A stretch of 64,000 nucleotides of DNA, taken from positions 1 to 64,000 of the forward strand of contig JBAMJV010011028.1 of NCBI GenBank assembly GCA_037951105.1, read 5' to 3'. The notes under the pieces are model-generated. The model was not told the DNA's origin, searched no databases, and saw only the letters and a list, made by a program, of their open reading frames with translations. This DNA comes from Echinarachnius parma (Eukaryota; Echinodermata; Echinoidea; Clypeasteroida; Echinarachniidae). Shown here one piece after another: positions 20,380 through 26,300 of the stretch. A program made the translations under genes and the position numbers. Positions within the stretch are counted from its first letter, which is position 1. The number at the start of each line of letters is the position of its first letter.

Positions 20380-23300
20380 CAACCACAATAATAATAATAT
20401 TGATAATAATATTGATAATATATTAAATAATAACAACAATAATATCATAATGAAAACAATGACGAGAACAACAATAATGAGGGGGGAAAAATGTGTTTCC
20501 CATGAATCGAAGCTGAGACCTCTGGATTGCAAGATCAGTGCTCTAACCACTAAAGCTTGAAGTTCTTATGATACTTCAAAAACACCCTTTTCAATGCTTG
20601 CCTTATATATGCTACACAAACAAAAATGGCACAAAATAGGTGGAAATAATCAAAAACTGAAAACTATCCAAAAAAATGTCAAGATTATTTTAGAGAAATT
20701 GAAATATTGCAAAATTAAGATCAATTATCTCTCTCTACTTTACTCCTGTCTTGGTTTTTGCCACATCTGATATGAACAAATAAATGCCTGTAAAACAATT
20801 CTACTACCGAAAAACAAGAATACAATATTGAGCCCCCCACCCCCCCCCCCCCCAAAAAAAAAAAAAAAAAAAAAAAAAAAAACATCATTACGCCTGCTCT
20901 TGCTCATTTCATAGATGTCTTGTCAAGTGATCAACCATTTGGTTTCTTGGCGTAGCTTTTTTCCCCTATTCCAAGTGTTTTCACAACCATATTCTTATAA
21001 TTATCATGCACAAACTACAGTATTTGCTGGTGTAGTAATGGCACCTATTTCCTGATGGTAGAACCTGTGATGTTTTGCTCCAATCAGAAAAAACAACAAG
21101 TTTTTTAATATGTAAGGGAGAAAATCCTGGAATATTTAGTTTAATTATGTAACCCTGCTCCCAGGCATAGTTTGATCATCAAGAAAATGTTTTGTTTTCC
21201 CTTAAAATGACAACCCAAAATGCGCTTTGAGCACCCTATTTGCGCTCTGAGCACCTTATTAGGTGGATATTGCGCAATACAAATATTCAATATTATTATT
21301 ATTTATGAATACATATATGCGGTTTGTACACCAGCAAATATGGTAGTACTACTGACTAGCATTTCAAATGCAAAATCAGAAGTAGTACACAAAATATAAA
21401 AAACCAACAATATATGTAATTACGTCTGCTCTTGTTCTTCCCGTAGAAGTTGTTGTGCCAGGTGGTCAACCACTTGGCCAGTTTCTTGGCGTTGCTCTTG
21501 TCTCCCTGCTGACCGATGATCTGCTTCGTCGACCCCGGCTTGTACTTGTCTACCCACATCTCCGTCGCCACGTATGATGACCCATCGGAAACTGCTGGGG
21601 GTTTTGAACCTTGAACGTTCTGTGATGATGACGACGACCCTGGCTTTGATGATACTGATGTTGATGGCGCTGGTGATGGTGTTGAAGGCTTTGTATCTAT
21701 TTTGGGTTCTGTTTTTGTAACAGTCTTTTGAGAGTCTGATGCCGATTTAAATTCTTGCTTGGGTTCTTCTTTGACAGTTTTCTTCTCCACCTTCTGTGAA
21801 CTTTGACCTTTGGCCTTTGACTTGCCCTTGCCCGGCCTCGTCTCGATCAACTCGTAGAGATCTTCCTCTTGGATTTGTTTGACCCCAAAACTTTGAGCCT
21901 AGGAAGAAGAAAGAAAAAAATTCACATGATAGTTGAATTTAAATCATCTATTTTGAAGTTGAGATTTGAAGCATTATGGTTGTCATGGTAATATCTAGAT
22001 CTTAATATTAAAGATCATCATACATAGGGATGTAGAGGGCACTGTCTAGAAACTAGGCTAGTTTGTGCGCACTACATACATGTAACACTGATCCAGTGCG
22101 TATTACGCACTATGCGCAGGGTGTTTGCAAGATGGCATCGCACATCTGTAGCCCATTTCATAAGACACTGTTGTAAGTGTCCAATTATTGTAACTACCAT
22201 GGCAACAACTGTAATGCTCCATGCTGATTGGCTGATGACCAAATAGTTACAATAATCGAACACTTACAACAATTGCAAGTGTTTTATGAAATGGGCTACT
22301 GATTAACAAATCCAAACAAAAATAAACCATATGTCTGGCATAATTCACACACATATAATATGCATATGCTGGACAACGAAGATGATGATTATTATGCTTG
22401 CTGCTGCTAATGTTTTTGATGATGGTTATAATGGAGGTGATGATTGTGTTAGTTAAGGTGATGATGATGATAATAAAAATTTTTGACTTTTGACTCTCCT
22501 GGTTCACGACTAATCACAAGGTACAAAGTCTTCTTACTCATGCTCCCGGTGACTCTACCGCTGTACATTTCTACCACTGCCTTTATCAAAGCATTCTATG
22601 ACCCCTGTGATAACAAAAGCAATTCAACAACCACTCTCACCTTTGCGACCTTTGACTCCCCAGGTTCGCGACCGATCACAAGGTACGAAGTCTTCTTGCT
22701 CACGCTTCCGGTGACTCTACCGCCGTACTTCTCTACCATCGCCTTTATCAAAGCATACTTTGACCCCTGTGATACCGAAAGCAATAAGACAACTACTTCT
22801 CACCTTTGCGACCTTTGACTCCCCGGGTTCGCGACCAATCACCAGGTACGAAGTCTTCTTGCTCACGCTCCCGGTGACTCTACCTCCGTACTTCTCTACC
22901 ATCGCCTTTATCAAAGCATACTTTGACCCCTGTGATAACAAAAGCAATACAACAACCACTCTCACCTTTGCGACCTTTGACTCCCCGGGTTCGCGACCAA
23001 TCACAAGGTAGGTAGTCTTCTTACTCTACTCACGCTCCCGGTGACTCTACCGCCGTACTTCTCAACCATCGCCTTTATCAAAGCATACTTTGACCCCTGT
23101 GATACCAAAAGCAATAAGACAACTACTTCTCACCTTTGCGACCTTTGACTCCCCGGGTTCGCGACCGATCACAAGGTACGAAGTCTTCTTGCTCACGCTC
23201 CCAGTGACTCTACCGCCGTACAACTCTACCATCGCCTTTATCAAAGCATACTTTGACCCCTGTGATACCGAAAGCAATAAGACAACTACTTCTCACCTTT

Positions 23301-26300
23301 GCGACCTTTGACTCCCCGGGTTTGCGACCAATCACAAGGTAGGTAGTCTTCTTACTCTACTCACGCTCCCGGTGACTCTACCTCCGTACTTCTCTACCAT
23401 CGCCTTTATCAAAGCATACTTTGACCCCTGTGATACCGAAAGCAATAAGACAACTACTTCTCACCTTTGCGACCTTTGACTCCCCGGGTTTGCGACCAAT
23501 CACAAGGTAGGTAGTCTTCTTACTCTACTCACGCTCCCGGTGACTCTACCTCCGTACTTCTCTACCATCGCCTTTATCAAAGCATACTTTGACCCCTGTG
23601 ATACCGAAAGCAATAAGACAACTACTTCTCACCTTTGCGACCTTTGCCTCCCCGGGTTCGCGACCAATCACCAGGTACTTAGTCTTCTTGCTCACGCTCC
23701 CGGTGACTCTACCTCCGTACTTCTCTACCATCGCCTTTATCAAAGCATACTTTGACCCCTGTGATACCGAAAGCAATAAGACAACTACTTCTCACCTTAG
23801 TGACCTTTGCCTCCCCGGGTTCGCGACCAATCACCAGGTACGTAGTCTTCTTGCTCACGCTCCCGGTGACTCGACCGCCGTACTTCTCTACCATCGCCTT
23901 CAGCTCGTCTTTATCAAAGCACTCGATGACCCCCCGTGAATACAAATGTCATCCCTTCCAGACACGAGTCAGCTCCCTTTGAAAAGAAAATGGATTAGTA
24001 TGAAAGTCCATGAGAAATCAGAAGACTAACACTTTGTGTGCTGGATTGTGCTGGAATAATATAATTGTAAAGTGCTTTAATAGAGATGATAATCAATCGT
24101 GATAGGCGCTATATAAATTGAGGATATTATTTTTATTATTATAAAGGAAATGTATGGATATAAATTCAATTTTTTACCAACTAAGCTTCACAATAAGAAT
24201 ATATAATCTTCAGCTCATCTTTATCATTGAAGCATTTTATGACTCCACATCACTCCAGTGATGACAAACACTTCTAGACATGCATTGGTTCCCTAAAACT
24301 ATAGAAAATATAGAATTAGCTTGAAGCTGTGTGACTTTCATCATACCGTATTTGTCGGTGTATTAACCGCATGGTTTTCCCGACGGAATTACCGACGAAA
24401 AGGGGGGTGCGGTTTGTACACGGAGATAGGAAAAATTGCATGAAAAAAAAAAAATTTATAGTAAAATTCTTGATTTTTAGATGGTCAAAATGTGCCGAGA
24501 TAAGTAAAAACATAATTCTTTTCCAGAGAGTTTTGGTCTATGAAATATAATTCAATTAACTGAAGTCTCTGAAGCACATAAAGGAAATTATGAGCCCCTT
24601 CCCTAATGCTGTAACCGATCATCGGATCCGCATGCCGATCCCGATCCGATCATGGTTGATCGGAGCGTTTTTGCCGATTTCCGATCATGCAGAAAAAATC
24701 GGAAGATCGGATCGGAAAAAAAAAAAAAAAAAAAGAAGTTTTTTTTCTTTGGAAAATGATCCCAAAAAACATATTTTGGGAAAATAAATGAATACCAAAG
24801 CAACATATATCCATATGAATAAGCCCAAGGTAATCTTGTATGGGTATGCTTTCATTTCAAACTGATTACCTCTCCTTTTACAAAATTACTCACGGCGATT
24901 GATCTGAAAGGTTACGCCAAATTAATCACATGGGACTGAGCACAACTACTGCAGAGTCTAAGTGCTTGGCATGGCATGAGTATAGCGTCTTCATAATTAA
25001 TGAAGACGCTACGCGTGCCAAGTACTTAGACTCTGCAGTGTGCTCAACTGCAGAGTCTAAGTACTTGGCACGCGTATAGCATCTTCATTAATTATGAAGA
25101 CGCTACACTCATGCCATGCCAAGCACTTAGACTCTGCAGTAGTTGTGCTCAGTCCCATGTGATTAATTTGGCGTAACCTTTCAGAAATGCCGTGAGTAAT
25201 TTTGTAAAAGGAGAGGTAATCAGTTTGAAATGAAAGCATACCCATACAAGATTACCTTGGGCTTATTCATATGGATATATGTTGCTTTGGTATTCATTAT
25301 TTTTTTTTTTTTTATTAATTATTTTTTTTAATTAGCCGATCATCCGATCCGATCTGCGATCCGATTTCGATGATCGATAAAATGTTGCCGATCCGATCAA
25401 CCGATCCGATCATCAAGGTCAGTTACAGCATTACCCTTCCCCGATCAATCCGTAAGATTTGTTGAGTAATTGAGTTTACCAGAAAATACAACACGGAACA
25501 CTATACATGGGACTGTAATAAATTCTAGAAGAAAAACAAAGACAAAACAACAAAAATTAATTAAAACGGAGATAAAAAAAACTGTACCTTGATATGTTAT
25601 TCCTTCTTACAAGTCCAGATTTGGTTAAATCTACCCTTGAATATTGTTTTCAAGGGTTGAAAATTGTTTTTGGAGATGAAAAATTGCGATCGTATTAAAC
25701 TTGCAAATGCTGGTACAAAAAGTTTGCAGGTTTGATTTGTCTGAAATTAGCAATCAATCACGATAGGATTGGCTAACTTCAGTCTTGACTGAAGTTAGCC
25801 ACTCCCGATTCGGGATTCATGGCTAATTTCAGTCTTGACTGAAGTTAGCCAATCCTATCGTGATTGATTGCTAATTTCAGTCAAATCAAACCTGCACACT
25901 TTTTCTCCACACTATAGTACCAGCACTTGCAAGTTTAATACGATCGCAATTTTTCATCTCCAAAAACAATTTTCAACCCTTGAAAACAATGTTCAAGGGT
26001 AGATTTAACCAAATCTGAACTTGTAAGTTATCTTTGTTTTAATTAATTTTTGTTGTTTTGTCTTCGTTTTTCTTCGAGAATTTATTACAGTCCCATGTAT
26101 AGTGTTCCGTGTTGTATTTTCTGGTAAACTCAATTACTCAACAAATCTTACGGATTGATCGGGGTAGGGGCTCATAATTTCCTTTATGTGCTTCAGAGAC
26201 TTCAGTAAATTGAATTATATTTCATAGACCAAAACTCTCTGAAAAAGAATTATGTTTTTTACTTATCCTCGGCACATTTTGACCATCTAAAAATCAAGAA

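Follow-up and report, generated by a model that had tools for sequence, protein, structure and literature searches.

How did a row of partial copies of one exon come to lie inside a core replication gene of the echinoid Echinarachnius parma, and do the copies contribute to its product? The window analyzed here is the whole stretch of 64,000 nucleotides (nt) at the start of contig JBAMJV010011028.1 (C11006:1-64000), and the assembly searched comprises 1.2 Gb in 14,790 contigs. Aligned with an approximate human COX1, its mitochondrial COX1 frame places 13 of 14 TGA codons at Trp positions, 13 of 18 ATA codons at Ile positions and the single aligned AAA codon at an Asn position, a pattern in agreement with the echinoderm code, though on thin AAA evidence; the COX1 protein looks like that of a sea urchin. 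On the minus strand of the window, the strand of every exon, exon copy and array unit located in it below, lies RFC1. An earlier note made from the sequence had named this gene, and the protein matches agree: PDB matches are headed by human RFC1, and the best match to the BRCT segment is the human RFC1 BRCT domain (2ebu, E 9.6e-27), with 6vvo also matched (E 3.8e-23). The BRCT exon is followed by a tandem array, which we consider probably to be an intronic, minisatellite-like row of partial copies of that exon, generated by local DNA-level tandem duplication, exchanging sequence with the exon's tail and removed together with the intron.

Tandem Repeats Finder described the array as 163 bp repeated 8.6 times, with 92% matches and a score of 2263, and it is therefore not a chance resemblance. 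The layout given in the earlier note was recovered. Eight derived copies follow the BRCT exon, with lengths of 163, 168, 168, 163, 168, 162 and 163 nt and a truncated last unit; spacers of 36-37 nt and of two types lie between the cassettes; all eight copies share an 11-bp deletion in the alignment; and AG stands ahead of every cassette. The units are A1 (23633-23795, with an open cassette at 23633-23758), A2 (23465-23632), A3 (23297-23464, identical to A2), A4 (23134-23296), A5 (22966-23133), A6 (22804-22965), A7 (22641-22803) and the terminal A8 (22485-22640). Exact open cassettes of 126 nt are present in units 1, 4, 6 and 7, whereas units 2, 3 and 5 carry a 5-bp insertion and are closed. 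A8 belongs to the most divergent type of unit and contains a stop codon; its lack of a GT donor limits the claim of AG and GT borders, of which only the AG holds for all units. The cassettes had also been said to repeat the second half of the BRCT segment. Their length and openness are as described, but the first eight residues (GSKYALIK) are outside the BRCT frame. Thus the array layout stood, while a clean founder, spacers of plain intron, an in-frame cassette start and a donor in every unit did not.

A second contig, C2518, apparently carries the other haplotype of this locus. C2518:124000-153999 and the window are broadly collinear; they align in blocks of about 80-98% identity, among numerous indels and repeats off the diagonal, and all 18 matches of an RFC1 BRCT-linker query fall on C11006 and C2518 only. 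For these two reasons C2518 was taken as an allele and not as a recent large duplication. Its array has seven derived units, of which B1, B2 and B5 are open 126-nt cassettes, and this second array makes a simple artefact of assembly unlikely. That the array is an artefact of a single true exon is in our estimate extremely improbable: repeats of 163 bp are prone to mis-assembly, and an extra G in the window's BRCT exon (see below) is possibly a homopolymer error, but the second array is differently composed and the units carry both shared and private changes. The earlier note had asked whether the array would collapse to one exon in an independent assembly; a separate contig keeps it, with seven units, in a comparison made within one assembly. 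The amplification with unequal exchange that the note proposed is supported by the difference in copy number (eight and seven), the identity of units 2 and 3 and the intermixing of A and B units in a poorly resolved tree. The array has head-to-tail units whose number varies between two contigs taken as haplotypes. By the distance matrix and by tail differences, inner units are more alike than those at the edge, where A8 pairs with the terminal B7 of C2518; A8 and B7 are outliers, as is the inner unit B3. The distances are inflated by the alignment of the spacers, and no rates were drawn from them.

The exon from which the array derives (the founder, A0) occupies 23796-23976, between the acceptor ..ttttcaaag/ and the donor /gtgagaag. 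It had been described as carrying the full 60-codon BRCT segment. This does not apply to the window exon, which is 181 nt long and frameshifted: a sixth G in the run at 23930-23935 sets GADSCLEGMTFVFTG and VIECFDKDELKAMV in different frames. Only the counterpart exon B0 (C2518:139690-139869; 180 nt, five G) has an open frame. The sixth G may belong to a genuine allele or stem from a homopolymer error. The preceding RFC1 exon (26702-26971, a tblastn match range with an approximate 5' border) ends in ..YRSYLNREGPRALGTREEPE; within it, at 26870-26965, lies a 27-bp coding repeat that encodes iterations of a T.T.P.KG-like linker motif. The next exon (21446-21898, acceptor ..cttcctag/, 3' border approximate) contains the end of the BRCT domain, the linker and the start of the AAA region.

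The frameshift, together with the several broken copies of exons at this locus, could indicate a decaying pseudogene in which the array is irrelevant to the working gene. We regard this as very unlikely. The BRCT-linker query finds no place other than these two contigs (18/18), the BRCT exon of C2518 is open, and every further RFC1 exon that tblastn matches in the window is matched in a single frame. The tblastn matches on C2518, obtained with an approximate human RFC1 probe, reach about residue 1115 (E <= 7e-4) and more weakly residue 1148 (E 0.11-0.15). PF08519 scores above its cut-off twice within C2518:113854-114835, on the same strand and downstream of the BRCT domain. On C2518 the domain order is thus that of RFC1, from BRCT through the AAA clamp-loader to the RFC1 C-terminal domain; the window ends upstream of the C-terminal exons, and the end of the gene was read on C2518 only. 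A BRCT family scan returned 13 places at E <= 0.001, seven of them RFC1 and the other six one place each on six contigs.

The nature of a unit becomes clearer from the spacers, which had been read as plain intron. They look mostly like the first third of the BRCT exon joined to about 8 nt of intron start, and the units are therefore near-whole exon copies set head to tail. In the longer spacer type, the frame of the previous copy continues, after the ~8 nt of intron, as V R S S C L I A F G/V I T G V, where the BRCT exon begins with A D S C L E G M T F V I T G V. Most units with the longer spacer read KVAK V R S S C L I A F G I T G V K V C F D K, and B4 has F V I T G V. With the approximate human probe, tblastn aligned spacer stretches to residues 395-461 (E 0.003-0.004) and the last unit to residues 401-429. 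Upstream of the founder, at 24208-24292, an older and decayed copy that covers the first half of this exon was seen by eye and by alignment; by eye, the 11-bp deletion is absent from it, and blastn touches its C2518 counterpart at C2518:140544-140579. In the alignment, about 6 nt that follow TGTCT in the founder are missing from this decayed copy (24292-24208) and from the derived units alike, an observation in favour of spacers derived from the exon. Restoring the 11-bp deletion to a 163-nt unit gives 174 nt, or 58 codons. That length is divisible by three, and the earliest duplicates may thus have kept one frame across their junctions.

These features suggest a sequence of events. The first would have been the direct copying of part of an exon into its own intron, which is frequent among the genes tested here, with local DNA-level tandem duplication copying a unit that spans from just inside the exon to about 8 nt into the next intron. 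The first duplicates, perhaps joined in frame, would then have been broken by indels. Unequal exchange would shift copy number and homogenize most inner units, with the terminal unit retaining older divergence. The functional exon would form the upstream end member, its last ~93-96 nt taking part in the exchange and its first part not. Splicing from the donor at 23795 to the exon at 21898 would remove the whole array within one intron of ~1.9 kb.

If the open cassettes were used instead, one unit at a time would be spliced in to give RFC1 isoforms longer by 42 residues. Neighbouring units would be skipped because introns of 36-37 nt are too short, and by the unit lengths the introns between non-neighbouring units would be about 200 nt or longer. 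Across both contigs, 7 of the 15 derived units (A1, A4, A6, A7, B1, B2 and B5) are indeed exact, open, phase 0-0 cassettes of 126 nt with AG and GT. Their openness, however, is expected from a coding origin and recent common ancestry. The remaining 8 of 15 are broken or truncated and unable to add an open, properly bordered insert, the eight residues outside the BRCT frame would open every insert, and an extra half of a BRCT domain would be unlikely to fold. Frame and splice sites are therefore not generally kept among the copies, and what separates the units is mostly exon-like in appearance and not true intron. We judge use as cassettes to be unlikely, and a silent, exon-derived minisatellite, as judged from sequence features, to be likely.

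Between the array and the tail of the functional exon, sequence seems to have been exchanged, in one direction or the other. An exon segment was divided into a head of 27 nt and a tail of 93 nt and compared with 12 inner units; B3, from which the segment is absent, was left out. B0 and A6 differ at 6/27 head positions and at 1/93 tail positions (Fisher p 5e-4). Over the 12 inner units, differences from B0 range from 6 to 8 of 27 in the head and from 1 to 6 of 93 in the tail. The head was the more divergent part in 12/12, at p<0.02 against B0 and p<0.05 against A0, a count that includes the identical A2 and A3. No such contrast with B0 was seen for the terminal units A8 (4/27 and 14/93, p 1) and B7 (6/27 and 12/93, p 0.23). 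Four tail codons differ between A0 and B0. For three of these (T/S, A/S and T/A), both states occur among the array units, and for the two-base change GCA/ACT, ACT is held by A0 and by unit B2 of C2518. The fourth (CGA) is private to A0. The variable sites of the 12 inner units fall on codon positions one, two and three at 6, 4 and 10 of 20, a lean to the third position.

Several points weigh against a silent, exchanging array. The inner units of the window keep AG and GT borders, with a strong-looking donor (AAG/GTGAGA) and a moderate pyrimidine tract (judged by eye, unscored), and exonization or trace inclusion of units is possible. The shorter spacer type (A6, A8, B3 and B7) is one base shorter and loses the frame described above, and the first ~10 nt of the spacer are weakly exon-like. 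B3 is an inner unit about as divergent as the terminal ones. In the unit tree 2/13 inner branches are starred, and the label test does no more than fail to separate A from B. The allele status of C2518, as opposed to a recent large duplication, is drawn from its collinearity and the count of two loci. Common ancestry of a recently copied tail would give a pattern similar to that of exchange; the Fisher tests are non-independent, the 27/93 split was picked after the alignment had been viewed, and small insertions were passed over. Mild constraint, as well as exchange with the exon, could explain the lean to third positions.

Other RFC1 exons have left partial copies as well. The ATPase exon at 19552-19766 has a partial copy (92%) at 19846-19972 that includes about 14 nt from ahead of the exon. 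Three copies of the 3' part of the linker exon at ~29404-29605, with up to ~200 nt of intron, form a 193-bp array at 28803-29292, and two partial copies of the exon at ~29901-30055 (AKGTGLASKLAAKVRAETRVPETP) lie at 30156-30455. On C2518, additional partial copies accompany 6 of the 17 RFC1 exon segments. The copies span exon borders, covering positions 120 to 402 of the 202-nt linker exon, -14 to 115 of the ATPase exon and -195 to 92 of the TGLASK exon (borders set by eye, within a few nt); they therefore look like copies of DNA and not of cDNA. Further partial copies of the exon at C2518:113857-114075 were noted at three places within C2518:113159-113655, and copies of the last RFC1 exon segment (C2518:110017-110094) at four places within C2518:108611-109864. 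Tandem arrays with periods of 151 bp and 323 bp also lie between RFC1 exons at window 27542-28112 and 33280-34120, which fits frequent local duplication. A separate feature is an open frame of 364 aa on the minus strand at window 616-1707, seven-helix receptor-like by eye. It matches C2518:126101-127092 at 78%; window 10496-11942 is matched at 96% by that same C2518 stretch, which sits in an RFC1 intron of ~17 kb flanked by exon segments at 132746 and 115862.

RFC1 was considered as a special gene in this respect and rejected, as MCM, CCT and other BRCT loci hold the same kind of copies. Copies were searched for within 5 kb on each side, ending where a 10-kb piece ended. When RFC1, MCM, CCT and other BRCT genes were pooled, 27/72 exon segments had a direct copy (26 of them at >=80% identity) and 1/72 an inverted one; the 49 copies have a median length of 72 nt, a median distance of 334 nt and a median identity of 86%. 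The pooled set takes RFC1 from C2518 only and 16 of 63 CCT places, from three contigs, and drops C3590:116872-117024, which is itself a copy; the BRCT place on C2345, with scores equal to those of C10906, was left out. Taken separately, MCM and five other BRCT loci gave 15/40 segments with partial copies (one of the 40 itself a copy), and CCT gave 6/16 at >=80% identity, or 7/16 with one weaker copy. An earlier control with mismatched loci had yielded 56 matches among 507 exon-locus pairs. Since that set included MCM genes, which are related to one another, and two loci that are probably alleles, the control was confined to unrelated genes; MCM exons searched in the RFC1 locus, and RFC1 exons in the MCM loci, then matched in 1/323 pairs. 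C1152 and C2586 are probably alleles and so count as non-independent. They differ in two partial copies, of 72 nt and 27 nt, which suggests recent turnover. At C3590:116016-117024, an MCM exon segment and two copies of it (83% and 79%) lie within 1 kb, one of them being a stop-free family match.

A mechanism specific to exons, by which introns would receive copies of exons in preference to other sequence, for instance via RNA, was weighed against random samples. In the MCM and BRCT loci, 14/39 exon segments had a direct copy, as compared to 223/780 non-exon samples (89/780 inverted), drawn 20 times at random over the same 14 loci from outside the analysis's own exon list. Non-exon sequence is copied likewise, and exons are therefore neither spared nor clearly enriched. 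The direction of the difference would favour exon-specific copying, but it is small and the copies cross exon-intron borders, which leaves such a mechanism improbable. Local duplication of DNA instead seems to make partial direct exon copies common in this genome, and the RFC1 array seems striking in copy number and ordinary in origin. At >=80% identity, 1467/9364 exon nucleotides (15.7%) in RFC1, MCM and other BRCT genes have a local copy, and 649/3072 (21.1%) in CCT. The nearest published figures, in PMC9013439, are ~2% of exonic nucleotides with a homologue of at least 80% identity in human, 0.08% in fly and 0.06% in worm. The rate here looks far above those figures, in a rough comparison that sets a small sample from one genome against whole genes studied with another aligner.

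Dscam is an example of tandem exon duplication with mutually exclusive exons. In that class, which PMC9013439 treats, copies of one exon likewise stand head to tail inside one gene; the RFC1 units differ in having no true intron between them, a frame-breaking deletion and 8/15 broken or truncated members. Signs of regulated choice among units were sought in frame and borders. A minisatellite, or variable number of tandem repeats, under concerted evolution is alike in its tandem units, here of 162-168 bp, in a number that varies between contigs, in the likeness of most inner units and in a divergent terminal one. It is unlike the array in that the RFC1 unit is derived from coding sequence and has a functional exon as its upstream end member. 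A coding minisatellite such as the Prdm9 zinc-finger array resembles it in that exchange reshuffles a coding repeat. The Prdm9 repeats are translated and lie within one exon, whereas in RFC1 every repeat after the first is probably intronic. PMC9013439 and the Exonize study (PMC12343006) recognize intronic copies that resemble exons as a class; in the latter, partial, inter-boundary and intronic events are found in significantly more genes than full-exon events. About 10% of animal genes have tandemly duplicated exons according to a 2002 study cited in the former (PMC9013439). In a literature search of limited coverage, none of the papers listed dealt with an array of RFC1 exons or with partial copies of exons in the introns of sea urchins.

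A wider proposal, which we put forward tentatively and hold to be doubtful, is that in this animal roughly one coding exon in three has partial direct copies in its own introns, and that these act as a local donor pool rewriting working exons, as three of the four tail codon differences in RFC1 that are also present in the array might illustrate. If copies do adjoin a third of exons, this genome would be a dense natural record of the origin of new exons and of gene conversion between exon and intron, and gene prediction in such genomes would be misled by open exon fragments that bear splice sites. The RFC1 case suggests that the exon edge of a core replication gene can evolve in concert with adjacent non-coding repeats.

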